Source: a virus. From it: a stretch of DNA of 32,098 nucleotides. Below the pieces are notes generated by a model. That model was not told the origin of the DNA. It ran no database searches and was given only the letters and a program-made list of their open reading frames with translations. The position numbers and the translations under genes were made by a program. Below are positions 5,224 through 31,309 of this stretch, in pieces (the first letter of the stretch is position 1; every line of letters begins with the position of its first letter). Location of the stretch: IMG/VR virus record IMGVR_UViG_3300034418_005730, positions 1 through 32,098 of that record. The stretch is one strand, 5' to 3'.

Positions 5224-5787
5224 ATGAAAGACTTATTTGCTCGTAGCATGACGAGCTTTTTTAAATGGACAGCAGATACTTTTTTTGCTAAGCGATATGG
5301 GCATCGTGCCGTAGTTCTTGAAACAGTAGCGGCTGTCCCAGCTATGGTGGCTGGAATGATGCTACACCTTAAAAGTTTACGGCGGCTTCGGCGTGGCTAT
5401 GATCCTTACATAGACCAGATGCTTGAAGAAGCTAAGAATGAGCGTATGCACCTTATGTTTTTCTTGGAGATTGCACAGCCCAATGCGTTTGAAAGATTTT
5501 TAATTACTGCGGCACAGTTTGTTTTCTGGCATTTTTACTTAGTTCTTTACATCTGTTCTTCCAAAACAGCGCATCGTATGGTAGCCTACTTCGAACAAGA
5601 AGCAGTTGAAAGCTATACTGAATACTTAAATCTTGTGCAAAGCGGTCAAGTAGAAGATGTTATTTGTCCAACTATTGCCCGTAATTATTATGCACTTGGG
5701 CCAAATGCAACACTGTCAACAATGATTCGTTATGTCAGGGCGGATGAACAGCGTCATGCCGATGCTAATATGAGGATGTCTTTATGA
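5224..5787 (+). CDS. aox: Alternative oxidase (ubiquinol:oxygen oxidoreductase, AOX)
   Basis: A 187-residue di-iron protein of the AOX family, which oxidises ubiquinol and reduces O2 to water at the inner membrane without pumping protons. The diagnostic motifs are present in order: LET with Glu 33, NERMHL with Glu 73 and His 76, the E-x-E-A-V-x-S-Y-T block at 124-132 (with Tyr 131), and RADEQRHADAN with Glu 175 and His 178. The NERMHL form and the first-helix sequence match mitochondrial and bacterial AOX, not the plastid PTOX form (NEMHHL) known from cyanophages. It is short, ending five residues after the last motif, and lacks a targeting extension. AAAGGAGAT precedes the start. AOX in a phage is uncommon. 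Confidence 0.9.
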   Translation: MKDLFARSMTSFFKWTADTFFAKRYGHRAVVLETVAAVPAMVAGMMLHLKSLRRLRRGYDPYIDQMLEEAKNERMHLMFFLEIAQPNAFERFLITAAQFVFWHFYLVLYICSSKTAHRMVAYFEQEAVESYTEYLNLVQSGQVEDVICPTIARNYYALGPNATLSTMIRYVRADEQRHADANMRMSL

Positions 5788-17720: not shown

Positions 17721-18004
17721 TTTACTTTATCGGCCCAGTAAGCCGCTGACATTTTTCCTTTTGCTATATTTTTAGCATGTCTTGCTTTGAACGATTTTCG
17801 CTTTGCTTTCATTGCTGCTGACTCGCCGGGCTTTGGCTTGCCTGCAGTTTTCGCGCCCTTTTCACCAAAGCGTATTGTTTTAACTTTGTCGCCTTCTTTT
17901 GCCACCACGATGTGTGACTTTGTTTTGTGGTTGGGTGTACGTTTCGGTTTGTTATAGCCACTTACTCCTGCCCTTTCTAGCCTCGAATCTTTTTTCTTAG
18001 TCAT
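17714..18004 (-). CDS. Small basic conserved phage protein
   Basis: A 96-residue, strongly basic protein with a RAGVSGYNKPKRTPNH block, an IVVAKEGDKVKTIRFGEKG strand region, a GKPKPGES turn and a KARHAKNIAKGKMSAAYW helix ending in VKW. The pattern is well known to me from marine phages but unassigned. It probably binds nucleic acid or is a virion component. It overlaps the lysozyme gene by 8 nt. Confidence 0.7.
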   Translation of the reverse strand: MTKKKDSRLERAGVSGYNKPKRTPNHKTKSHIVVAKEGDKVKTIRFGEKGAKTAGKPKPGESAAMKAKRKSFKARHAKNIAKGKMSAAYWADKVKW

Positions 18005-18422
18005 AGATTTCTCCAGTGCGGATCATTTCAGTTACTTCTACTGCACGTTGACCAACTTGAACAGCCCAACGACTGTCCAGAAATTCATCTGCTGCTTCCT
18101 CGTAGTTATGAATTGCCATAGCTGCAAGCGCATTCTCAAATTTTCTAAGGCGTGTAAGGCCTAAGTTAAAACATAGGTTTACCATTGCTTCGCGTCGAAT
18201 TTCAGTAAGATCTTTAAACCATGAAAAGGCTGCATCAAGTTCTTCAATACAACGCTGAATGTCGTTCATCAACAGATAGTCTACTTCGTCGTGTGTAAGC
18301 CCTAAGCCTACGCCCATCTTTATACAGCGCCCTACGCCAATAGTTTCATAGCCAAGGTGGTCTTTGTAGACATAGTATTTAACACCCTCATGACGCTTTA
18401 AAGTATCAATGAGTCTTTGCAT
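17997..18422 (-). CDS. Phage lysozyme (GH24, T4-like endolysin)
   Basis: A 141-residue muramidase of T4 lysozyme type, which cuts the N-acetylmuramic acid to N-acetylglucosamine bond in peptidoglycan. The catalytic triad Glu 12, Asp 21, Thr 27 has the family's E-x8-D-x5-T spacing (HEG...YKD...ETIGVG). A later NLCFNLG and a DSRWAVQVGQRA block match the C-terminal lobe. It has no signal peptide, so release needs a holin, and holin-like genes lie both upstream and downstream in the operon. It starts 2 nt after the stop of the 1498-residue protein gene. Confidence 0.93.
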   Translation of the reverse strand: MQRLIDTLKRHEGVKYYVYKDHLGYETIGVGRCIKMGVGLGLTHDEVDYLLMNDIQRCIEELDAAFSWFKDLTEIRREAMVNLCFNLGLTRLRKFENALAAMAIHNYEEAADEFLDSRWAVQVGQRAVEVTEMIRTGEIYD

Positions 18423-18424
18423 TA

Positions 18425-21400
18425 TTATTTTTCTCCGTCTTGATAGAAGGGGCTAAGACCCTGCTCTATTCTTTGTAAAGCGTGTTGTTTTGCTTTCATG
18501 ATAATAGACTCAGGAATATTTTTAGCGTTTCCTTCAAGCTGCATATTTGCTAAGGCTTCTATTTCTTTTGTAGTAAGAGTAGGAACCATTGTAGGCACTT
18601 CCATTTCTTGACCGTTTATTTCCATGCCTACAGAAACTTCTGTCATAGTGCCGCCTTCAACATTGTTTTTTACCGGCCCTAGAAAACCTTGTGCAGATTT
18701 TTTACTTCCGTCTGATCTATACATGCTAGGATCTTCAACGCTTCCACCAACTTGATAGCCTCGTCTTGACTTGCTTTCTTTAGGCGTGTAGTACAGCACC
18801 TCTTTATTCCTAATCATTTTATCAATTTTTCTTTCAGCATCCTCGTAACTATCTGCTTTAATTTTAAAGCCTTTGTTGTTGTTTGCTATATCCATAGCCC
18901 CGCCTTTAACATCAAGCTCAACAAACTCTCGTAAGTTTGCAAGGAATCTAGTTGCTTCAGGATAGTTAGCTTTTTGAGCAACAACGCCTAGAGCTAAGTG
19001 TCTCGCAGCATCACCACGGCCATCAAGCCGTTCAGCTTCAGGATACTTTTTATCTATGTTCATAGCCCACTCAAGGCCTTCTTTAGGGACTCCTAAGGCT
19101 TCTGCAGCTGCGTCATAGCCTGCTTTTTTAATCCTGTCAACAAAACCGCCTTCGTTAAACAACATGCGCTTTTCGGGGTCTTCTTCGTCTACAAAAGCCG
19201 ACCCAGCTTGTATGTTGTAGGGCAGTCCTGTCATCTTGTCGATACGCTCGTCAGGCTCAGTAGGTGCATTGGGGACAATAACTTCACCGCCTTTTGCAAA
19301 CTTTTTACGGTCTTCTACAAATGCTGCTTCACGCTCTTCAGGCGTTACGGGCATGAGCGGAGTAGCCATCATGTTTCCATAAGCACGATAAATGTCATTA
19401 ATAACTTGGGCTTTTTCTTGACCTTCAAAATCAATTTTTTCAATAAGATCTAAAGTTTTTCCAAAAGAGTATTTTTCTGGTCTAAACTTACCTGACAACA
19501 AAAAGCCAATTTCTTTAACAGGCATGTCATTTTCCCTAAGAAGCATAATAACATCTTTACGACCCAATAAAGTTTCTGCAGCCATTGCATACTCATACAT
19601 ATCTTGTTGTATTTCGTATAATGCTTTTTGACGGTTTATTTGTTTTTCGTATGCGTCGTTTGCCGTCATAGAATAATCAGGTTTTGAAGAAATAATTTCT
19701 CTTTTAAGCCTGTTATACTCTTTAACTTTGTACATTAAAGCATCAGACGGATTAAACTCTGTAAACCTAGCTCCTGTGAGGTTAGTTACAAGTTCAGCAC
19801 CCAAGCTCTTAGGCTTGCCCGTAGTTCTATTAGGCGTTTCAAAATAAGCATCGTACATGCCTTTACCGCTTGAAACACTTCCCGGAACAAAAGGATCTAC
19901 AATAAGTGTAAACGCAGCAATAGCTTTATCAGTATTATTCATGCCTTCTACAAACACAGGAACTCCGGTTGATGTTCTACCATCGCCCGTAGCAGCCCCA
20001 TAAATTTCACGCAAGGATTCTGTTACCATAGACTCGCCTACATAGGGAGTTAAAAGCTTTTTAGTTGCTGACAAAACAGCATCAGCTAAATAGCTTTCTA
20101 ATTCTTCACCCCTAAGCTGTCCAGACTGAATGCTATCTAATGCAGACATAATAGGCTCTTTTAAGGGAGAGTATGAATCAATAAACTGAGTATCGTTTGT
20201 GTAAAGCTTATCGCCCATTCTTACAACATTTTTAGGCGCATCAGACCAAGGAGTTCTTGAAAGGGTTTGTAAGGCTTCTGCTTCGTCATCATTAAACCCT
20301 GCAAACTGCGCTGTCTGACTTGCTACAAAACTAGGTGCTGCAAGCATAGCAGTAAATCCTGCAAGACGTTGTTGGCCCCGACGTACAAGCTCATCATTAC
20401 CAGATGTAATTTCTTTAGAAGACTGCTTAACAATGTTTACACTAGTTCTCCAAATTTCTGTAGGAAACGCAACAAAGTTACCGATTGGTAAATAACGCAA
20501 AGCTTTAATTCCTTTTGGAACCCTGTCATAATTAGGAAAAGTATTTTGAACAATGCGAGCAGCCTCAGATTCTAAAACATCAAGACTTTCATCGGGCATT
20601 GCACGTTTAAGATAATCTAACTCATGCTCAAAAGCGTTGACTTTATAAAAATCATCTACAGCCATATATACGTCTGTAGCGCCTTTATCTAGTTTTTCTA
20701 TAAAACCATAGCCACGTACTTTACTTCCTAGTTTTTGGACAAGCGTATCTGGTCCAGACTCAAAGCCTGTTTCAAGAAGTGCACGAAATTCATTAACCCT
20801 AACGTTTGTATTAATAATTCCTAATCGCAAGTATTTTTCGTACATTGCATCAAGCTCTTCGTCGCCGCCACGAACAATGCTGTTCTTTAACGCTTGTGCT
20901 GTTTTATTTGCTTGATTAAAAGGATTCATGCCATTAGCAATACCAAACTGCGCACCACCAGAAGCGTTACGTAAGTGTGTAACGTGGCTATAAATGGTTT
21001 TCATTTTTTGTGAAGAGCCTTTTATTGCAGCTAAATTTCTAAAAAATCCTGAATCAAATGCTGAAAAATGTACTTCTTTTTCTTTAATAGCTGCAAGCAT
21101 TTCAGGCGTAGTGTACTTACCATCTAGCACAGAATTTGTTCCGCTAATTTTAATGGAGTATGAAACACCATCACGCTCAAGAGGCTTATTAAAAATATAC
21201 TTATTACTGCCCAGCTGATTAAGGTTGTTAAAGAACTGGTTGTTTTCTGTAAGTTTAGCAAGCTTAGATACAGTCAACACAATGTTTTCTGCAGGCTCTT
21301 CGATTTCTCCCATTAATGCACGAATTTCTGCAGGAATATCTTTTTTCTCTTTTAATATTTCTTTATTAACTCTACGAACTTTTGAGTAATAGTCTTCTGC

Positions 21401-22921
21401 AGCAGCTCTATCACCTTGAGATAAAACCTCATCAATTTTGCCACGAGCCACTTCGTAAGCTTCATCATAATTAAGCCCACGTTTTAATTGTTGACCTACA
21501 AGGTAGTCTTCGGCTTGGCGCACAGCAGACTCAGAAGGCTTATAGCCGCTATCTTCAAATAAACGATAAGATCTTCGAATATATTCACCAGAGTTTTCAA
21601 GGATGGTTTCACGAAACTCGCCATTAGGTATGTTAGAATTAGCAAGACGACCAGAAAGCCTGTCAATTAACTGACGAGCATTCAATACTTCTGTAGCAAC
21701 CTCTTCAGTTACATCGTATTTATCCATTACAAAGCGTACACGAGCTTCTTGGGTTACTTGCGGATGAAAGCCTAAGTCTTCGCGTAGTGCGTTTTGAACA
21801 TTTTTGGTTGCAGTTTCTGTAGTTGCTTCATCACCTAGTGAACGTAAAGACTGCTGAAGTCTATTGGAAATATTTTCTGCTTCTTTTACAATTTGACGCT
21901 GTGCATATTGAGCATCATTAAAAGCATTAAAAGCCTGTGGGGTCCAATAACCACGAGAAGTAAATGTTTGTTGCATAAACCGACGAAGCTTGCTACTGTT
22001 TTGTTGCGCAACTTGAGCAACGCCTTGAGGAGTTTCTGAAAAAATAAGGTTAGGCTGCTCAGCCCTTAAGTTAGTAGCTTGTCGAGCATCTTTAAGATAG
22101 TCAGCAATAATTTCTGCTTCTTCAGAGCGTGTAAGTTTTGCATAACCCTTATTAAATAATTGTTTTGCTTTAGATGCTAGTTTAGCAGTCCCCATAATTG
22201 CCTCAGCACCTACGCCTATTGCAACACCTTCAGCTAAAAGTTTTGTACGTTCTTCAAGCGCAGTATCGTCTTCATTTACTGAAAGATATTCAACTAAGTT
22301 TTGAGCCATGCTTTCTGCTTCAAAAAGCTCTGACTCTGATAAAGTGTTTGCTAAAGCGTTATCACCTGTGTATAATAATTGATCAATAGCTACACCGCTT
22401 AAAATACCATTTACAATTCGAGGTGTAGCTGACATTAGTTTAGTCCCGGCAATAGCTGTGCCGCCTACTACATATGGAGCTATTTCTAATGCAGTCCCGC
22501 CCAAAGTTTCTCTAGGTAAGACTTTACCTTCAGCATCAATAACGTCTTCTGTTTTTAATCCGGGAATAAGAGGCGTAAAAGCAGAAACAAATTGGCGTGT
22601 TGTAGCTCGTCTAAAGTCGTCTGTAATAAGATCGCCTTTTTTACCTAAAGCATTAGCTACAATATTTGCAACATCCGAAACTGCTTTAGTTCCAGCAACC
22701 CCTACATTGGTTAACACACGCGCAGTATCCCTTGCAAAATCACCAAGATCCGTAGAGTCATCAGTGTTTTGCTCTATTTCTTGATCTGTGGTTAGTTTTA
22801 CTTCCTCTTCAGGCTCTTCTGTTTGACGAGAAATATGTTTCTGATATACTTCAGAATCTGTAACATCATCAGGTACATTTCGATATGAAGTCCCATCGGG
22901 AAGAGTAACTGTTCTAGGCAT
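18425..22921 (-). CDS. Large internal virion (DNA-ejection) protein
   Basis: A 1498-residue multidomain protein placed like the largest ejection protein of T7-like phages. It begins MPRTVTLPDGTSYRNVPDDV. Hydrophobic stretches near residues 140-180 and 225-245 could contact membrane, and the middle is long and helical. A TGLPYNIQAGSAFVDEEDP block lies near 1230-1250, followed by a domain with RGDAARHLAL (His 1308) and MDIANNN (1343-1349) that resembles DUF6973-type domains. The last 100 residues form a module (SAQGFLGPV, MVPTLTTKEI, GLSPFY) seen at the ends of other phage virion proteins. No transglycosylase motif was spotted. Its start overlaps the previous stop (TAATG). Confidence 0.65.
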   Translation of the reverse strand: MPRTVTLPDGTSYRNVPDDVTDSEVYQKHISRQTEEPEEEVKLTTDQEIEQNTDDSTDLGDFARDTARVLTNVGVAGTKAVSDVANIVANALGKKGDLITDDFRRATTRQFVSAFTPLIPGLKTEDVIDAEGKVLPRETLGGTALEIAPYVVGGTAIAGTKLMSATPRIVNGILSGVAIDQLLYTGDNALANTLSESELFEAESMAQNLVEYLSVNEDDTALEERTKLLAEGVAIGVGAEAIMGTAKLASKAKQLFNKGYAKLTRSEEAEIIADYLKDARQATNLRAEQPNLIFSETPQGVAQVAQQNSSKLRRFMQQTFTSRGYWTPQAFNAFNDAQYAQRQIVKEAENISNRLQQSLRSLGDEATTETATKNVQNALREDLGFHPQVTQEARVRFVMDKYDVTEEVATEVLNARQLIDRLSGRLANSNIPNGEFRETILENSGEYIRRSYRLFEDSGYKPSESAVRQAEDYLVGQQLKRGLNYDEAYEVARGKIDEVLSQGDRAAAEDYYSKVRRVNKEILKEKKDIPAEIRALMGEIEEPAENIVLTVSKLAKLTENNQFFNNLNQLGSNKYIFNKPLERDGVSYSIKISGTNSVLDGKYTTPEMLAAIKEKEVHFSAFDSGFFRNLAAIKGSSQKMKTIYSHVTHLRNASGGAQFGIANGMNPFNQANKTAQALKNSIVRGGDEELDAMYEKYLRLGIINTNVRVNEFRALLETGFESGPDTLVQKLGSKVRGYGFIEKLDKGATDVYMAVDDFYKVNAFEHELDYLKRAMPDESLDVLESEAARIVQNTFPNYDRVPKGIKALRYLPIGNFVAFPTEIWRTSVNIVKQSSKEITSGNDELVRRGQQRLAGFTAMLAAPSFVASQTAQFAGFNDDEAEALQTLSRTPWSDAPKNVVRMGDKLYTNDTQFIDSYSPLKEPIMSALDSIQSGQLRGEELESYLADAVLSATKKLLTPYVGESMVTESLREIYGAATGDGRTSTGVPVFVEGMNNTDKAIAAFTLIVDPFVPGSVSSGKGMYDAYFETPNRTTGKPKSLGAELVTNLTGARFTEFNPSDALMYKVKEYNRLKREIISSKPDYSMTANDAYEKQINRQKALYEIQQDMYEYAMAAETLLGRKDVIMLLRENDMPVKEIGFLLSGKFRPEKYSFGKTLDLIEKIDFEGQEKAQVINDIYRAYGNMMATPLMPVTPEEREAAFVEDRKKFAKGGEVIVPNAPTEPDERIDKMTGLPYNIQAGSAFVDEEDPEKRMLFNEGGFVDRIKKAGYDAAAEALGVPKEGLEWAMNIDKKYPEAERLDGRGDAARHLALGVVAQKANYPEATRFLANLREFVELDVKGGAMDIANNNKGFKIKADSYEDAERKIDKMIRNKEVLYYTPKESKSRRGYQVGGSVEDPSMYRSDGSKKSAQGFLGPVKNNVEGGTMTEVSVGMEINGQEMEVPTMVPTLTTKEIEALANMQLEGNAKNIPESIIMKAKQHALQRIEQGLSPFYQDGEK

Positions 22922-24270
22922 TATGGATTCCTAAAAGTAGTGTTGTAATCAAATGTAGTAGCTGATTGAAGTTCTTCAGCAAAAGAAAGTTTAGAAGCAA
23001 TAAATGTTTGTAGTTCTTGCATTGCAGCGTTTCTTTTTTGTGGATCTGTTTCAACTAAAACACTAGACAGCATTGCTTGTAACTCTTCAGGCTCTCCAAC
23101 AACCAACTCAAAAGTTCGAAGAGTTTTTTGATTGCGATATTCATCACGCAAGTTATCAGAGTTATTTAAATATTTTCGATAAATAGCTTGTAGCTTATTA
23201 TGTTCTGCTACTGTTTTAGGTGCTTGAATATTTAATTGTTCGTTAGTTGCCTCATCTGCAAAATTTGCAAATGCCTCAGGTCTTAATAACTGACGACCAT
23301 CTTTTTCAAAGTTAAAAATAGTGTTTAAACCTTTCATAGTGTCTAAAGAAACAGTATTATTATCAGAATTAGGTTTAAAAATAACACGAGGCTTACCTTC
23401 ATCTGTAACATTAATTTCAGTAGTTTTTTCGCCGGTGTTTATTTCGGTCTTTTCAACCTCTTCATAAACAACAAGACGATCATCAATTTCTTGTAGTTTT
23501 TGAGTTCTATTAATTTTGAATTTTTCATCAGCGCTCATTTCAACTTCAGGAAAAACAACATTTGCAATATCAAACGATCTAACTATATCTCCCGTTCTTC
23601 GATATGTAGACATAAATGTATTTAATTTTTCTGCGTTTTCAGCCATTCTACCTTCAGTAATAGCTATAACGGCTTCAGTTTCTACATCTTTTTGGTTTTT
23701 ACCGCCTATTAAATTTGCACCTGTTCTTGTAACCCATGAACCTAAATTACTTGGCGCAGCTTTTTTAGTATTTAATTCTACCATAGCAGAATAGTCTTCT
23801 TCACTTGCTACTTTTTTAGCTAAAGCAAGAGCAGGCCTATATTGATTTTCTAACCAGTCTTCAGCCATTTTTAATTTTTGTTTTTCTCGCCACTCTTCAT
23901 AAGGCCCAGCTTTGCCTGTAATGTCATCTGGTAAATTTCTTTGGAGGTATTCTTCAAATTGCGGACCCATATTTTTTAAAGTCCAATCAAGCTCGCCACC
24001 CTGTGCAGCCATTTGAGTTTCGGTGTTAAAAAGATCTGCCGTATAAGTTCTAGCTTGTTTTTGAGCAAGATTAGCATTCCAAATAGGTTCTTTTGTTAAA
24101 AAATCATTTGTTTTTGCTGCAAGACGCTCATTACCTATCTTAGCCGCAAGACCAATGCCAAGACCCAATAAAGCATTACGCTCTTCTTGCTTCCGAAGTC
24201 GTCGTGATTCTTGTTCTCTTCTTTTGCGAATGTCCGTTAAAAGAGATTCGCCAAATTGTTCAATAGACAT
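22921..24270 (-). CDS. Putative internal virion protein
   Basis: A 449-residue protein of mostly helical, charged sequence. A strongly basic coiled start (residues 13-32, RKRREQESRRLRKQEERN) is followed by a Gly-rich hydrophobic stretch (LLGLGIGLAAKIG) and then long acidic-basic helices. Its place next to the 1498-residue protein, with a one-base overlap, points to a virion protein ejected into the host, as with gp14 to gp16 of T7. No family was recognised, so this is a call from context. Confidence 0.5.
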   Translation of the reverse strand: MSIEQFGESLLTDIRKRREQESRRLRKQEERNALLGLGIGLAAKIGNERLAAKTNDFLTKEPIWNANLAQKQARTYTADLFNTETQMAAQGGELDWTLKNMGPQFEEYLQRNLPDDITGKAGPYEEWREKQKLKMAEDWLENQYRPALALAKKVASEEDYSAMVELNTKKAAPSNLGSWVTRTGANLIGGKNQKDVETEAVIAITEGRMAENAEKLNTFMSTYRRTGDIVRSFDIANVVFPEVEMSADEKFKINRTQKLQEIDDRLVVYEEVEKTEINTGEKTTEINVTDEGKPRVIFKPNSDNNTVSLDTMKGLNTIFNFEKDGRQLLRPEAFANFADEATNEQLNIQAPKTVAEHNKLQAIYRKYLNNSDNLRDEYRNQKTLRTFELVVGEPEELQAMLSSVLVETDPQKRNAAMQELQTFIASKLSFAEELQSATTFDYNTTFRNP

Positions 24271-24875
24271 TATACTTCTTCCTCTGTAACAGGCTGTGGT
24301 GCAAGCAGGCTTTCTTCAGCAGGCGCTGAGGCTTCTTCAGGTCGTGACATAAGGCTTGACATTTCTGGAACAGGTAACTTTTCAATTGTTTCTACCATTT
24401 CAGGCGTAATAGCACTTGAAGGAGTTTGACCAATTGCTGCAAGCTTTTTAATATTTTCTAGCTTTTCTTTTTCAAGCGTAGCGCCAAATACTCGCTCTTC
24501 AGCTTCATCTTCTTCTTCGCCTTGATAAATTTTTGGGTCAATCCCTGCACGTTCAGCAAGCGCTAAAATCATATAAGCAACAGGCTCAACAAGCATTAAC
24601 ATCAAGTCAGGGTTCCATTTGCCCTCTTTAAATCCAGCAAATAACAACGTTTGTACAATATCCATAACAGGCACATCTTGAACAAGAACGTCCATTATTT
24701 CTTTATAGTTTTGCTCTTCAATAAGACCTTCAAAAATATCTTCAGAAGCCTCATGAACCGAAGTAAACTCAGGAGGCTTTTCATAAGGTGCTGGGTCTGA
24801 AGGATCGCTTGTCAGGCTTTGGCCCGGAATAGGCCTACCGCCCGTTAAAACGATCTGATTATATTCTTCGTTCAT
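24270..24875 (-). CDS. Putative virion-associated protein
   Basis: A 201-residue acidic protein. The N-terminus is Pro-rich and extended (GGRPIPGQSLTSDPSDPAPYEKPP), a helical middle holds one hydrophobic segment (about 88-106), and the end is acidic and Pro/Ala-rich. Genes with this start occur in other marine phage late operons, as far as I recall, without known function. It overlaps the next gene by one base. Confidence 0.5.
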   Translation of the reverse strand: MNEEYNQIVLTGGRPIPGQSLTSDPSDPAPYEKPPEFTSVHEASEDIFEGLIEEQNYKEIMDVLVQDVPVMDIVQTLLFAGFKEGKWNPDLMLMLVEPVAYMILALAERAGIDPKIYQGEEEDEAEERVFGATLEKEKLENIKKLAAIGQTPSSAITPEMVETIEKLPVPEMSSLMSRPEEASAPAEESLLAPQPVTEEEV

Positions 24876-24888
24876 GTATTATTTTCCT

Positions 24889-26121
24889 TTAAGCTAAACC
24901 GTATTTACGCATAGTATTTATGTATGTTGCTTCATTATACATATTAGCATTAAACCCAAACGGCTGCAAACCCATAGATTGTTGATTGTTGGCTACATAC
25001 TGTACAGGATCCATTCCCATAGCTGTTCCTACCATTGGAGCTTCTTGGATTGTTGGAACAACAGTAGCGTAAGATACTTGAGTGTATGTTGGATCTGGAC
25101 TTAAACCTACAAGCTTTTTAGCGTATTGAGATGGAATATCTGTAAGTGTTGACCCTAGTTTGTCCATAGCCCTTTCTGGAAGCTCTGAAAGTTTTTGACG
25201 GCCTAAACGCATTGTTTTATCAATAAACGATTCAGGGTCTGCTGCTTTTGTAATAGAACTAAAATCACCAGAACGCATAGCTTTATTTTCAGCAGCTGTA
25301 AAATCTGGATTAAACTCTTTATCAAAAGCACTATCAAGAGAAGCTTCTGCTTGTATTGCCAGCTTACGGTTACCTACAACAGAAGGATCGCCAACTGTAG
25401 GAGGAGTTAAATCAACGTCTGGTGACAGTAAAGAATCTGGCGCTTTTCCAGTTACTTTAACCTCAGTCATTGAAGCAGGCATATCAGGCGTAGCTAAATC
25501 TGGTTCAGCAAACTGTGGTGTAGGAGGTGTAATGGCTGAAACTTTATCAGGAGTAATGTTTGCAGCTTCAAGGCGGTTTGTTTCGTAAGCACCTGTTGGA
25601 TCAACACCACCTCCAGAGAATGAATCTAAAAATGCTTGACCACTACCTGTAATTTGTTCTCCAATAGATGTAAGATTTGCCTCGCTAATGCTTGTTCCAA
25701 GTTTTGTTAAATACTCTGACCCAAATGTTTCGCCTGCTTTTAAAAGCGCAGTGTCTACACCAAGCGCATTTGCACCAGCCTTAAGTGTTTCACCTACAAC
25801 ATTTTTAACGCCTTCGGTAATTGTGGTAAAAGGTTTTGTAATGTTCGAAGCAATTGTAGTTGCTTTTGCAAGAAAATTACCAGCACCATTTACAATTGAA
25901 GCACCCACTCCAGAATATGCTTGTAATCCTCCTACTACACTTCCCCACATTCCACTTAATGCAGCTCCAATGCCGGGCAACAAAAGCGACAAACCGATTT
26001 GACCAACAATGCCAATCTTGTCCATAAACTTACCAATAGATTTAAAAGCACTTTTAATACCTTTACCAATAGATTTAAAAGCACTTTTAATACCTTTACC
26101 AATTTTAGATAAAAATCCCAT
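24889..26121 (-). CDS. Putative virion protein with N-terminal amphipathic repeats
   Basis: A 410-residue protein. The first 35 residues hold the 11-residue unit GKGIKSAFKSI twice, then a partial third copy, making a basic amphipathic helix followed by a hydrophobic Gly-rich segment (about 39-70). This resembles membrane-active peptides. The rest is Ala/Thr/Pro-rich and likely extended, with a helical stretch near 270-330. Its place between two large virion-type genes suggests an ejection protein that helps breach the membrane. TTGGAGGT precedes the start. No family was recognised. Confidence 0.5.
   Translation of the reverse strand: MGFLSKIGKGIKSAFKSIGKGIKSAFKSIGKFMDKIGIVGQIGLSLLLPGIGAALSGMWGSVVGGLQAYSGVGASIVNGAGNFLAKATTIASNITKPFTTITEGVKNVVGETLKAGANALGVDTALLKAGETFGSEYLTKLGTSISEANLTSIGEQITGSGQAFLDSFSGGGVDPTGAYETNRLEAANITPDKVSAITPPTPQFAEPDLATPDMPASMTEVKVTGKAPDSLLSPDVDLTPPTVGDPSVVGNRKLAIQAEASLDSAFDKEFNPDFTAAENKAMRSGDFSSITKAADPESFIDKTMRLGRQKLSELPERAMDKLGSTLTDIPSQYAKKLVGLSPDPTYTQVSYATVVPTIQEAPMVGTAMGMDPVQYVANNQQSMGLQPFGFNANMYNEATYINTMRKYGLA
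26030..26095 (-). repeat. Exact 33-bp tandem duplication
   Basis: Positions 26030-26062 and 26063-26095 are identical base for base, and the first 8 bases begin again at 26096. Each unit encodes 11 residues, so the reading frame is kept. Lack of third-base differences suggests recent duplication. Confidence 0.9.
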
Positions 26122-26137
26122 TATTAACCTCCAAGAT

Positions 26138-29100
26138 TTAAAGCTTTAATAGCCTTTCAACTACAGCAACAATAGAGCTTGTTGTTGTTGAGTTCTTTTC
26201 ACCACTAGCAGCCGCTTCGTTTCCAATAGCTGTAGCATATAACTGTGTTCGACGAGTCTGATCATTTTCATAGGCCTGTCGTGTATATGCTGCATTGTCA
26301 CGAGCCTCTTGCCATAAGAACTGCATTTCTGCCATACTTAGATTAAAAGCGTTCATAACATTCTGTTGATTGGCTGCATTACGAGCCGCAGTGTTAATCG
26401 TATTGGTTTGTCGTCGCCATGCAATGTCTGCTTGTTCAATAGCTTGCTGATTTGCAGTATTAAACTGTTCGCGTTGCTGATCCATTTGTGTATTAAATTT
26501 ATCAATATCTGTTGCTATTTGTGCATTAGCAAGAGATACTTGTGTAGCGTTTTGAGCATTTTGTGCTGCAATACGATTCTGTTCAGAAGTGTTAAATTGT
26601 GCCATAGCATTTGTCTGAGAAGCGTTGAACTGTTCTGTTTGAGATGCTAAACTTGCCATGAACTGATCAGCTTGTTGTTGGTTTGCAGCGTTAAACTGCC
26701 GTGCTGCATTCTCAGCCGCTTGATTTGACAACATAGTTTGCTGGGCTTGTTGTTGATTCATAACAGCCATTTGTTGTTCATTTGACAAGTTTGTCATATC
26801 CATTTGTAAGAATGCTTGAGCGTTTTGTGCCGCAATGCGTGTACGTGCATCGAGGTTTGCCATGTCCATAGATGCCATAGCCGTAGCGTTTTGCATAATA
26901 GACTGTTGACGAGCATCAAAGTCCTTCATAGTCATTGACTGCATAAATTGACTATTAGCCATTGCAGCCTGCTGGTTAGCATCAAACTGTTTCATGTCAA
27001 GATTTGCATCAATCTGAGCATTAAACATTGCAGCTTGTTGTTGATTGCTAAGATTTGCAAGGCCCATTTGTTGAGCAAGCTGCGCGTTAACTTGTGCTGC
27101 CTGCATACGCTTTTCATACTGCTGAAGCTCTGCAACGTTTTGTGCTGACATAGACTCTGAATCTGCACGATTCTTAGAATCAAGGTTTGCAAGAGAAATA
27201 CGCTCTTCCATGCTAAGACGCGCAAGATCTGCTTGCTGTAACAACTGTTCATTCTGCGACATAACTTGAACATAGTTGTTTAACTCTTGAAGACGGAATC
27301 TGTTTTCTTCAGTAAAGTTTGCAGCATCCGCTGAAGCTCTTTCTTGAAGATTTGCAAGTTCCATTTGTTGTTCATTTGCAAGATTTGCCATGTCCATTTG
27401 CTGAGCAAACTGCGCATCAGTCTTACGGAAATCAACAAGAACATTAAGGTTTGCAAGACGAGTCTGCTGTTCAGCCGTCATGTTTGCACGGGCTGTAGCA
27501 TTACGCTCAGATAATTCTGATAGCTCTACTTTTAACCTAGCATCAAGATTCGCACCTTCAGTTTGTTGATTTAGTTCAGCTTGACGTATTTTTTTATTGA
27601 CTTGTGCATTATATTCTGTTAACTTTGCTTGCTGTTCAGCACTAAGATTTTCAGACCCTGCACGATTAAGAGCTTCAAGATTTGCAAGTTCAGTCTGTTG
27701 ACTTTGACTAAAGTCTTGTGAAATAATTTGCTGACGCATTTGAGCATTTTGACTAGCTTCTTGAAGTCGGGCATTCAAGTTAGCTAACTCAACCTGTTGT
27801 TCTGCGCTAAGATTATCAGCCGATGCTTGGTTCTGTGCAGTTAAGTTTGCAAGAGTAATTTTTTCTTGTGTGCTAAGATTTGCAAGTTCTGCCTGCTGAC
27901 GAAGTTGAGTGTTTTGCGACATAACCTGTGCATAGGTTTGAAGTCTGCTTAACTCAAAACGATTAGCTTCTGTAAAGTTTGCAGAGTCTGCAGCAGCCCT
28001 TTCAGAAAGATTAGCAAGTCGAATTTGTTGATCATTTGAAAGGTTTGCAAGATCCATTTGCTGTGCTAACTGTGCGTTAGTCTTTTTGAAATCTACAAGA
28101 GTATTTAAATTAGTCAACCGCTCTTGGTTTTCAGCCGTCATTGTATCACGAGCAGCTAAGTTTTGTTCAGACAAATTCTTTAGTTCAACCTGAAGCGCTG
28201 TACTGAGGTTTGCTTTTTCCATGTCCTGCTGAAGTTCAGCCTGACGCATAGTACGATTAACTTGAGCTTGATAAGTTGCAAGACGTGTTTGTTGCTCTGC
28301 TGTTAGATTTTGAGTTGCAGAGGCGTTGATAGCCTGTAGGTTTGCAAGCTCCATCTGTTGAGCCGAAGATAAGTTTTGTACAGCTGCTTGTTGTCTTTGT
28401 GCAGACTCTTGTTGTGCTCTTTGCTGCTGAAACTGCACGTCAGCCATGCGAGACTGTTGTTCTTGTTGGGCTGTCAGTATTTGTGCTTGTTGGCGGAATT
28501 CACCTTGCTGTACTTTAATTTGCTGTGCCATCTGTGCTGTTTGAGATGCAGCAGTTTGACGGTTAGCAAGATTCTGCATACGAAGACTTGCAATCTGCTT
28601 AGACTGTTCTAAGTTTGCTTGTTGTTGATTGCTGAGGTTTTGTGATGCACGTTGCTGAAGGGCTTGAGCATTGCTCTGAGCCATTGGCAGCGCACTCTGT
28701 ATGATAGCATTAAACAACGCATCTCGTCCAACAGTAGACGTGCTGAGGCCTCTGGAGGCCATCTGTGCGTTGATTGCGTCTACAGCAGGTCTTGCCCACA
28801 TTGGAACTTCGCCATCTTCCATGCCAGCAAGAAGACCTTCCATCTGTGTAGACACAAGCGCTTCTTCTGGAAGTGCTGCAACAGCCGCTACAACTTGAGG
28901 ATCTTCACCAGTATCAAGCTGGGCTTCAACGGTTGCAGGATCTTCTGAGATTGCAGCCGTAACTTCTGGAGGCATTTCAACAACAACAGCCGCCATGTCT
29001 GCAGCAGCCATTTTACGTGCTTGGCCTGTAACGGCTTGCATTTGTGCAGCCTGTGCAGTTGGAATACCACCAATTTGGGCTGCATCGCCTACTGGCGCTT

Positions 29101-30907
29101 CACCAAGAATAGCTTGACGACCTTCAAGATCTACTGCGGGTTGACCACTTAGTTGGGTAGCAATGCCTTCGGCGGCTTCAGCAACTTGTGCTGTACGCTT
29201 TGCAACCATCTGATACGTGCCAAGTTTATCAAGGTCTGTTTGTTCAGCAATAACCTCAGGAGGCGCATCAGCCGTAATAGCCTCACGACTTGCAGCAGCA
29301 GCTTTACGAACTTCTTCCATTTGTGCAGCTTCAGGAGCATCAACACCTAAAGCCGTATATGCTTCACGCTTTGCAGGACTAAACGAGTCAAACTGTTCTA
29401 TGCGTTGCTGACGGGCTTGTGGCGTTTCATCTGCACCAATAAATGCTGCTTGTGCTGCTTCAGCTTGTGGAGCTTCTCCAAGACGTGAGCGATACTCAGC
29501 AGTAGCTGCTTCGCCTTGTTGAGCTATGCGTTTTTGAATTACATCTTTATATTCTGGAAGGTCTTGAAGGTCTACACCACGTCCTTGAGCTATTTGGCCT
29601 AAACGCTCTACTTCAGCTTTTGAGACTGTAGCGCCTTCGCGTGTAACAACTGCTGGGCCTTCGATGTCTTCTACTTCAATAGTAGTTCCGCTTGTAGCAG
29701 CTTCAGCATAATCACGCGCTTTAGGTCTTTCAGCTGCCATTGCTCTTGCAGCTTGTTCAGCCGCAGTATCTCGTGTAGCTGCAACAGCAGGTTGAGTAAT
29801 GGTGCCTTCTTCGACTTTTGCAATAGCCCTATCACTTACTTGACCTCGTGCGGCTTCTCCGGGCGCAACACCTTCAGCACGAGCAGCTTCCATTTGTGCT
29901 GCCTGAACTTGTTGGGGTGCAGCAGCTTGAGCAGCTTCAACACTAGGTGCAGCAACAGCTTGGGTTACTTGAGCCGTTGTAGCTTGTGCGTCACCTGTAT
30001 CAGCCATTGTAAAGACTTTAGAATCTGGACCAGTTTCCACGTCTTCTGGTTCAATTTGTTCTAGTTCTGGAAGCGGTGGACGAACTATTTCAAGATTTAT
30101 TGGAGCGCCAGCTGGAATACCAGAGCCTGTTCCAGTGCCTGTTCTAGTGCCTGCAGGTGGAACATAAGTATCAGGAATGCCGTCACCATTTGTATCTGTG
30201 TTTGGGTAAGTATAATTAGTAGTTGCCCCGCCTGTTATACTTCGCGCAAACTCTTCCATGTCTGCTCTATATGCTGGATCATTTGCTCCTTGCCGATAAT
30301 CAGCAGGATTAGGCGCTTGTTGTTGTCCTTGTCTTATAGCCGCCTGTCGTGCCCTAGCCTCAGCCGAATTTGCAGGAGGTTGTTCCGATGCTGCAGCCAT
30401 TTGTGCCGCTCTAATGGTAGCTTCCATAGCTGCTGTTTGATCTTGAGTTTCGGCTGTAGCCGCTTGCGCCGCTTGCGCTTGTTGTTCAAAACCGCTTGTT
30501 GCAGCAGCTTGTTGTCGTGCAGCTGTTTCTTCTTGACGACGACGAGTTTCCTCTTGAAGTGCAACTGTAGCGTTTTGAGGCGTTTGTCTTGTAGCCGCCC
30601 CAGTTCCTTGTTGTCGTGCAGCTGTTTCTGCTTGAAGACGACGAGTTTGTTCTTGAAGACGACGAGTTTCTTCTTGAGTTGTAGCAGCTCGTTGCTGAGC
30701 AGCCGTTGCAGCTTGTCGTGCTTTAGTTTCTTCTTGAAGACGACGAGTTTCAGCGGCGCTTTGTTTTACAGTCCCTGTACGCTCATCAAAATTAGACGTG
30801 CCTCCTGCATACATGCGGCCGCCTTTTTGCATTGGCGCTCTAGCTCTTTTAGACGCAGCAGCCTTTTTAAACTTTTTAGAATTTCGTGTCTGTCTTTTCT
30901 TCGACAT
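26138..30907 (-). CDS. Giant hendecad-repeat rod protein, probable virion component
   Basis: A 1589-residue protein rich in Gln, Ala and Asn. Residues 1-35 are very basic. Residues 52-135 carry heptad-like TRRLQEE/ETAARQQ repeats. A calcium-loop-like DTNGDGIPD lies at 238-246. An Ala/Glu-rich region spans about 280-745. Residues 746-1548 are 73 consecutive 11-residue units (consensus N-L-S-x-x-Q-Q-x-x-L-A) without one insertion or deletion. A 41-residue tail ends in a hydrophobic helix. Hendecads form long right-handed coiled coils, and 803 residues of straight helix would span about 120 nm. Roles that fit are an ejection tube, a fibre or a tape measure. Position in the late operon supports a virion protein. 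Confidence 0.65.
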   Translation of the reverse strand: MSKKRQTRNSKKFKKAAASKRARAPMQKGGRMYAGGTSNFDERTGTVKQSAAETRRLQEETKARQAATAAQQRAATTQEETRRLQEQTRRLQAETAARQQGTGAATRQTPQNATVALQEETRRRQEETAARQQAAATSGFEQQAQAAQAATAETQDQTAAMEATIRAAQMAAASEQPPANSAEARARQAAIRQGQQQAPNPADYRQGANDPAYRADMEEFARSITGGATTNYTYPNTDTNGDGIPDTYVPPAGTRTGTGTGSGIPAGAPINLEIVRPPLPELEQIEPEDVETGPDSKVFTMADTGDAQATTAQVTQAVAAPSVEAAQAAAPQQVQAAQMEAARAEGVAPGEAARGQVSDRAIAKVEEGTITQPAVAATRDTAAEQAARAMAAERPKARDYAEAATSGTTIEVEDIEGPAVVTREGATVSKAEVERLGQIAQGRGVDLQDLPEYKDVIQKRIAQQGEAATAEYRSRLGEAPQAEAAQAAFIGADETPQARQQRIEQFDSFSPAKREAYTALGVDAPEAAQMEEVRKAAAASREAITADAPPEVIAEQTDLDKLGTYQMVAKRTAQVAEAAEGIATQLSGQPAVDLEGRQAILGEAPVGDAAQIGGIPTAQAAQMQAVTGQARKMAAADMAAVVVEMPPEVTAAISEDPATVEAQLDTGEDPQVVAAVAALPEEALVSTQMEGLLAGMEDGEVPMWARPAVDAINAQMASRGLSTSTVGRDALFNAIIQSALPMAQSNAQALQQRASQNLSNQQQANLEQSKQIASLRMQNLANRQTAASQTAQMAQQIKVQQGEFRQQAQILTAQQEQQSRMADVQFQQQRAQQESAQRQQAAVQNLSSAQQMELANLQAINASATQNLTAEQQTRLATYQAQVNRTMRQAELQQDMEKANLSTALQVELKNLSEQNLAARDTMTAENQERLTNLNTLVDFKKTNAQLAQQMDLANLSNDQQIRLANLSERAAADSANFTEANRFELSRLQTYAQVMSQNTQLRQQAELANLSTQEKITLANLTAQNQASADNLSAEQQVELANLNARLQEASQNAQMRQQIISQDFSQSQQTELANLEALNRAGSENLSAEQQAKLTEYNAQVNKKIRQAELNQQTEGANLDARLKVELSELSERNATARANMTAEQQTRLANLNVLVDFRKTDAQFAQQMDMANLANEQQMELANLQERASADAANFTEENRFRLQELNNYVQVMSQNEQLLQQADLARLSMEERISLANLDSKNRADSESMSAQNVAELQQYEKRMQAAQVNAQLAQQMGLANLSNQQQAAMFNAQIDANLDMKQFDANQQAAMANSQFMQSMTMKDFDARQQSIMQNATAMASMDMANLDARTRIAAQNAQAFLQMDMTNLSNEQQMAVMNQQQAQQTMLSNQAAENAARQFNAANQQQADQFMASLASQTEQFNASQTNAMAQFNTSEQNRIAAQNAQNATQVSLANAQIATDIDKFNTQMDQQREQFNTANQQAIEQADIAWRRQTNTINTAARNAANQQNVMNAFNLSMAEMQFLWQEARDNAAYTRQAYENDQTRRTQLYATAIGNEAAASGEKNSTTTSSIVAVVERLLKL
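26264..28672 (-). repeat. 73 in-register 33-nt units (11-residue repeats)
   Basis: Residues 746-1548 divide into 73 blocks of 11 with no break in register (2409 nt). Asn begins most blocks, Gln is frequent at positions 6-7 and Leu or Met near position 10. DNA-level similarity between units is moderate, so most duplications are old. Confidence 0.85.
26990..28309 (-). repeat. Two 660-bp superrepeats inside the hendecad array
   Basis: Units 12-31 (27650-28309, residues 867-1086) and units 32-51 (26990-27649, residues 1087-1306) align block by block. Both hold AEQQ, then YxAQVN, VDF(K/R)KT, (D/S)ANFTE and QVMSQN at matching places. A 20-unit segment was evidently duplicated once. Confidence 0.75.
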
Positions 30908-30910
30908 TTC

Positions 30911-31309
30911 TTACTTCTCCCTTGATACGCCCTTGACTTTTTCATAAGAGCGCATAGCGCCTAAGCCTAACATGCCCATAAGAACTGGCATCATAGTTTC
31001 TAAATCTATTAGTGGTATATTAACTTGAACTTCCATTAAAGCTAAAGTAAAATTAGCCATTGGTATTATAAGAAAGTTTCCAGCCATTCCCAACACACAG
31101 CACCAACCAACTGCAGGTCTCCATCCAGCCACGAACATAGAGTTATGTGCAGCTTCTGCTTTGTTTACTTCTAGCTGGGCCTTAGCTAATTCTTGTGCAT
31201 GTCTTTGAGCCATTGTCGCAACTTCGTGCGCCAGTTTAGCTTTTTGATCTTTGTCTTGAATAAATTTATCTAATAGACCTGTTACTGGTCCAATCAGTTG
31301 TTCAATCAT
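30911..31309 (-). CDS. Three-TM holin, gene-transfer-agent type
   Basis: A 132-residue protein. A helical N-terminus (DKDQKAKLAHEVATM) and the hallmark EAAHNSMFVAGWRPAVGW segment (residues 52-69) lead into hydrophobic segments at roughly 67-84 and 86-97, and a third at about 105-118. This matches the family of holins with three transmembrane segments found in gene transfer agents and related phages (Pfam GTA holin 3TM). It would open the inner membrane for the lysozyme. It lies far from the lysozyme gene, at the other end of the operon. It overlaps its upstream neighbour by ATGA. Confidence 0.8.
   Translation of the reverse strand: MIEQLIGPVTGLLDKFIQDKDQKAKLAHEVATMAQRHAQELAKAQLEVNKAEAAHNSMFVAGWRPAVGWCCVLGMAGNFLIIPMANFTLALMEVQVNIPLIDLETMMPVLMGMLGLGAMRSYEKVKGVSREK

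Follow-up and report, generated by a model that had tools for sequence, protein, structure and literature searches.

The window, i.e., the whole stretch of 32,098 nucleotides analysed here (positions 1 to 32,098 of the virus record IMGVR_UViG_3300034418_005730), carries on its minus strand a gene for a 1589-aa protein, which we call the hendecad protein, and a module of neighbouring genes (Table 1). The hendecad protein consists of a long N-terminal region, a conserved start anchor, an array of 73 eleven-residue repeats (hendecads), the last three of which form an end anchor, and a short C-terminal tail. In viral contigs, the hendecad, 410-aa, 201-aa, 449-aa and 1498-aa genes keep this order; in the window, the module is bracketed by a holin and a phage lysozyme. 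The order is also conserved in cultured phages. In the distant HMO-2011, CRP-1, ctYwJ313 (MW202701) and rhizobial phages it is kept, and the 410-aa homologue is not detectable there.

Table 1. The hendecad gene, its parts and its neighbours in the window
Feature	Position	Strand	Basis
Holin (GTA_holin_3TM), immediately upstream of the hendecad gene	30911..31309	(-)	Pfam E=1.6e-21, PHROG 3427 E=2.4e-37
Hendecad protein gene, 1589 aa	26138..30907	(-)	ORF and relatives
N-terminal region, residues 1-702	28802..30907	(-)	
Start anchor, residues 703-744 (MWARPAVDAINAQ...GRDALFNAIIQSALPMAQ)	28676..28801	(-)	anchor comparison
73-hendecad array, residues 746-1548	26264..28672	(-)	periodicity and profile
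Internal unit of ~220 residues (20 hendecads), copy 1, residues about 867-1086	27650..28309	(-)	lag 220
Internal unit of ~220 residues, copy 2, residues about 1087-1306	26990..27649	(-)	
End anchor (last three hendecads), residues 1516-1548 (NVMNAFNLSMAEMQFLWQEARD...)	26264..26362	(-)	
C-terminal tail, 41 residues, hydrophobic segment at its end (SIVAVVERLLKL)	26141..26263	(-)	
410-aa protein, directly downstream of the hendecad gene	24889..26121	(-)	synteny, weak PHROG match
33-bp (11-residue) perfect tandem repeat within the 410-aa gene, 2.2 copies	26030..26103	(-)	tandem-repeat search
201-aa partner protein	24270..24875	(-)	synteny, co-occurrence
449-aa protein, fourth gene of the module	22921..24270	(-)	synteny
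1498-aa large late protein, end of the module	18425..22921	(-)	PHROG 22602 virion structural protein, E=3.8e-28
Phage lysozyme (probably endolysin)	17997..18422	(-)	Pfam PF00959 E=9.7e-14

The gene module and its distribution

In nearly all the viral-contig relatives (L001-L051), the hendecad gene is followed immediately by the 410-aa gene, whose product is homologous to gp45 of HTVC115P. The N-terminus of this protein forms a cationic amphipathic helix, which corresponds to the 11-residue repeat GIKSAFKSIGK, and continues with a hydrophobic stretch; to judge from its sequence, it looks like a membrane-active peptide module. The protein also displays a weak match to a PHROG tape-measure family (E=1.2e-5). 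In HTVC115P, the 410-aa homologue is separated from the hendecad gene by gp46 (L053, 17486-17935), a gene annotated as toxin-activating lysine-acyltransferase. The 201-aa protein contains the conserved motif PIPGQSLT..P...PP, and the phages that encode it match almost exactly those that encode the hendecad protein; it is possibly a chaperone or a binding partner. The 449-aa protein ranges from about 400 to 960 aa among relatives and gave no family match in Pfam, PHROG or NCBIfam. The original prediction saw ejection proteins in these neighbours. The conserved neighbourhood, the order and the sizes of the genes are compatible with this, and the likeness is one of order and size only, with no homology to T7 gp14-16.

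A short motif of the K-G-G-x-V/M type is found in the hendecad protein (QKGGRMYAGG, residues 26-36, about 30800-30832) and again in the C-terminal part of the 1498-aa protein (FAKGGEV, NEGGFV, QVGGSV). It also recurs in many relatives, and is perhaps a processing or docking signal. Elsewhere in the window, a 187-aa ORF (5224-5787) weakly matches the PHROG family of plastoquinol terminal oxidase (E=1.3e-5) and could possibly be an auxiliary metabolic gene.

Scans of viral contigs gave 51 and 65 loci, partly overlapping, with relatives of the hendecad protein. Such relatives were also found in 25-27 records of cultured or assembled phages and in 7 contigs of metagenome-assembled genomes. Among the cultured carriers are the Pelagibacter phages HTVC103P, HTVC104P, HTVC115P and HTVC033P, Puniceispirillum HMO-2011, several Roseobacter CRP phages, Vibrio CHOED, Pseudoalteromonas Slicky01, Aeromonas MQM1, Rhizobium RHph_N3_19 and Sinorhizobium phiM6. 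The proteins of this family measure from 460 to more than 2116 aa. The window protein matched nothing in Pfam, PHROG, NCBIfam or the PDB sequences, and the relatives scanned gave no tape-measure match; this giant protein of marine short-tailed phages represents a family undescribed in the libraries searched.

An array that changes length by whole hendecads

The original prediction divided the protein, from residue 746, into 73 blocks of 11 followed by a tail of 41 residues ending at residue 1589, with no insertion or deletion across 803 residues. We reproduced this division exactly and likewise found no indel. Indeed, the Fourier power at 11/k reaches 106 in the array, against a maximum of 11 in shuffled sequences, which rules out a chance periodicity arising from composition, and no comparable 11/k peak is found in residues 1-745. 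The register was also scored out of sample, using a position profile built from distant relatives only, with the window protein excluded. By this way, the summed log-odds is +459 in register and -553 or worse in the ten other phases; the in-register phase is the best one for 65 of the 73 blocks (6.6 expected) and for all 69 five-block windows. The same profile places the edges where they had been predicted. Blocks ahead of the array have negative scores, -5.3 for the one adjoining residue 746, against +8.3 for the block starting at that residue; at the other end, the score is still +3.5 at block 1538 and no more than +0.8 at block 1549.

Higher-order periods of 55, 110 and 220 residues, which the original prediction had missed, are superimposed on the hendecads. 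The best self-match is obtained at lag 220, with up to 68% amino acid identity over 110 residues. A tandem-repeat search at the nucleotide level does not detect the array, which is too diverged in DNA; this excludes a DNA-level repeat artefact and means that the register is kept at the protein level. As had been noted, the composition is helical (no Pro and 4 Gly among the 803 residues of the array) and the protein is devoid of strong hydrophobic segments, the highest Kyte-Doolittle mean over 19 residues being 1.13.

To follow the register through the family, we used the distance between the two conserved anchors flanking the repeats. Conservation of the start anchor reaches as far as HMO-2011 and the Rhizobium phages, and both anchors are present in a set of 80 distinct relatives, which leaves out the truncated L010 and includes L054, in register by the anchor test. 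Cultured Pelagibacter, Puniceispirillum (HMO-2011), Roseobacter, Vibrio, Pseudoalteromonas, Rhizobium and Sinorhizobium phages are represented in this set. The inter-anchor distance varies from 208 to 1143 residues, and the differences are exact multiples of 11 in 80/80 relatives. Expressed as an offset from the window protein, it runs from -55 to +30 hendecads, integer throughout, and defines 17 length classes. The original prediction had named relatives with an often broken register as the finding that would speak against it, and relatives with different repeat numbers as those to look for; the latter were found, and none of the 80 has a broken register. That all 17 length classes conform is far beyond what chance would give.

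The N-terminal region provides a control. In the window protein, it starts with a basic stretch containing the K-G-G motif and continues as a low-complexity sequence rich in Ala, Gln, Thr and Pro. Its length among complete relatives varies from 145 to 973 aa without quantisation, and the start-to-anchor distances (75 proteins) are spread evenly over all 11 residues modulo 11. The longest one, 1463 residues ahead of the array, is found in the truncated relative L016 (IMGVR_UViG_3300032083_000419). In pairwise alignments, the gap length is a multiple of 11 for 1081 of 1954 gaps within the array, compared with 236 of 3867 in the N-terminal control, both figures being descriptive since the pairs are phylogenetically non-independent.

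Between close relatives, the array changes by steps of 110 or 220 residues, and one relative carries a recent 220-residue duplication, the best stretch of which shows 91% identity at the protein level and 80% at the DNA level. Differences of a single hendecad are also present (classes -55, -54, -53 and -52), and the quantum is therefore 11 and not 55. Hence, in this family, 11-residue units are gained and lost as units. The 73-hendecad repeat and the absolute conservation of its register are established.

Helix shape, models and physical size

On an 11/3 helical wheel, the hydrophobic positions of the array fall on two sides, positions 2 and 10 on one and positions 4, 8 and 11 on the other. 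The first harmonic of hydrophobicity is 0.06 and the second 0.71. Permutation of the 11 positions gives P=0.14, so that the pattern is only suggestive and descriptive; it recurs in all relatives tested, and the second harmonic is larger than the first in 90% of windows. Charges are concentrated at positions 5 and 9, and positions 1, 3, 6 and 7 carry the amides, with N/Q contents of 71%, 39%, 65% and 57%, respectively. Of the right-handed hendecad coiled coil originally proposed, the sustained 11/3 periodicity is retained, and the single continuous hydrophobic seam is replaced by two opposite stripes. Such stripes would be expected of a helix contacting neighbours on both sides, i.e., in a helical barrel, a sheet or a bundle.

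AlphaFold2 predictions do not establish the single straight helix of 120 nm that had been proposed. Modelled as a monomer, the window array obtains a pLDDT of 52 and a pTM of 0.27, and part of it is broken into a 55-residue helical solenoid in which a helix starts each 55 residues (pLDDT 65-80). A shorter relative (-30 class; 33 aligned sequences) is predicted with long continuous helices, and its C-terminal array with an unbroken helix of 168 residues (pLDDT up to 88). In both models the tertiary packing is of low confidence and is not to be trusted, and a continuous helix needing partners and a folded-back solenoid are both possible. A fold search against the PDB gave no match below E=0.1; in the viral fold search, the only significant matches were uncharacterised proteins resembling relatives.

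The carrier phages have short tails and 70 nm heads (PMC10410586, PMC6918029, PMC8528129); in MQM1, the head measures 70.6 nm and the tail 9.2 nm (PMC10410586). With a rise of 0.15 nm per residue, straight helices running from anchor to anchor would be about 31-171 nm long. As most of them exceed the head, a straight rod would have to be formed or extended on release, unless the chain folds back.

Possible roles of the hendecad protein

The change of length by whole repeats only suggests, from sequence comparison, helices lying side by side and held exactly in step, as in a rod or a tube, which is probably part of the DNA-injection machinery. More precisely, we infer that the hendecad protein serves in genome ejection as an oligomeric helical component locked in register, a proposal to which we give even chances. 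The array would form a long alpha-helical rod segment, packed side by side with its own copies or with its own returning segments. Since three turns of the helix take up almost exactly 11 residues, both hydrophobic stripes stay in line only if indels comprise whole hendecads, which would explain the length steps of 11. The protein would most likely belong to the ejection module of the virion; it would be stored in the head and leave it together with the 201-aa partner, the large 1498-aa protein and the 410-aa protein, which looks membrane-active. Once released, it could become an elongated helical conduit or spacer that prolongs the short tail up to the envelope or through it, in the manner of the phiX174 H tube or the T7 gp15 tunnel but without homology to them.

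The amide-lined hendecads of phiX174 H, in a DNA-conducting helical tube, are a precedent (PMC7354561). Both proteins contain hendecads with many Gln and Asn, and DNA passage has been proposed for H (PMC7354561), whose hendecads have a strong second harmonic and are intermediate between those of our family and those of the TP901-1 tape measure. H differs, however, by having 3 hendecads followed by heptads, by its size of 328 aa and by belonging to an ssDNA microvirus, and a profile search of the PDB sequences gave no match at E<=10. The T7 gp14-gp15-gp16 system (PMC8954989) resembles the module by gene order and sizes, and by a short tail that needs extension. The T7 proteins show no 11-residue periodicity and no Pfam or PDB sequence match with the hendecad protein, which is an additional component. 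Several points count against the ejection role: the absence of homology to any ejection protein, the missing 11-residue periodicity in T7 gp14, gp15 and gp16, the low confidence of the AlphaFold2 models, one of them with a 55-residue solenoid, the two-stripe pattern being suggestive only, and the straight length of about 31-171 nm, which in most relatives is greater than any periplasm.

This length is also an argument for the main rival, which we consider possible, if rather unlikely, i.e., an internal folded protein whose array makes a helical solenoid or bundle of 55-residue hairpins, a compact core or cargo of the head rather than a long rod or tube. Indeed, a straight rod of 72-171 nm is longer than the 70 nm head (PMC8528129), the predicted helices of the window array start every 55 residues, and the array resembles itself at lags 55, 110 and 220. 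On the other hand, the length quantum is 11 rather than 55, the relative of the -30 class is modelled with long continuous helices, the solenoid model is poor (mean pLDDT 52, pTM 0.27), and no solved structure matches its fold. The relative's model does not reproduce the 55-residue solenoid and the one-hendecad length steps speak against it, so that we keep it as a rival only.

That the array is a right-handed hendecad coiled coil standing outside the virion as a fibre or stalk, comparable to a tail fibre or to the stalk of tetrabrachion, is improbable. Right-handed coiled coils are classically built on hendecads, and those of the tetrabrachion type keep this periodicity along a long helix. 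Outside the virion, a length greater than the capsid diameter would be no obstacle, and the N- and C-terminal flanks are possible attachment points. Unlike these coiled coils, however, the array has a polar, amide-rich and two-striped core. Moreover, both anchors are conserved from phages of SAR11 and SAR116 to those of Roseobacter, Rhizobium and Vibrio, which sets them apart from receptor-binding tips, and the gene adjoins ejection-like genes, with no recognised fibre gene beside it within the window.

Eleven-residue repeats have, as the original prediction noted, precedents in the tape-measure proteins of siphophages (Belcaid 2011, PMC3271669; TP901-1 TMP, PMC5099701), and the array could be regarded as a ruler of tail or internal-tube length. 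Like them, the hendecad protein is a long late protein with dozens of 11-residue units, whose length evolves through duplication and loss of units, as described for tape measures (PMC3271669); a weak tape-measure match exists for the 410-aa neighbour, and the TP901-1 protein is the only control with a comparable 11-residue periodicity (z=17 versus 20 for the hendecad protein). On the contrary, the hendecads of TP901-1 are one-faced (Trp/Val/Ile; first harmonic 1.24, second 0.13), opposite to the two stripes of our family, which is found in short-tailed phages, lacks the Trp/Phe markers and the 18-residue units, is without strong hydrophobic segment and shows no sequence match to any tape-measure family. 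With tails of about 9 nm (PMC10410586), even the shortest arrays, about 31 nm, are too long for tail rulers. The tail size and the one-faced pattern of TP901-1 together rule out a tail-length ruler, and we regard the tape-measure reading as very improbable. Least credible of all is a lipid-binding 3-11 amphipathic helix coating membranes during infection: polar uncharged residues in 11-residue repeats are typical of perilipin, synuclein and LEA proteins, and the reading is ruled out by the lack of a single hydrophobic face on the 11/3 wheel (first-harmonic moment of 0.06 versus 1.24 in the one-faced TP901-1 repeats).

The family has its place between tape-measure repeats and helical DNA conduits, belonging to neither by any tested homology. 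Going beyond the role of ejection component, one may imagine a new class of DNA-entry conduit in short-tailed phages, a wide barrel or sheet of parallel hendecad helices encoded by a separate, tape-measure-like gene, with its membrane-inserting part in the next gene. Its length would be given by the number of hendecads and tuned to host envelopes by steps of 110 residues; we hold this extension to be unlikely. In all cases, array lengths that vary more than five-fold and yet are absolutely quantised in units of 11 residues offer an unusually clean natural experiment on the constraint that a helical assembly imposes on evolution. As cultured phages carry arrays of different lengths, the spanning of the envelope by short-tailed phages becomes testable.
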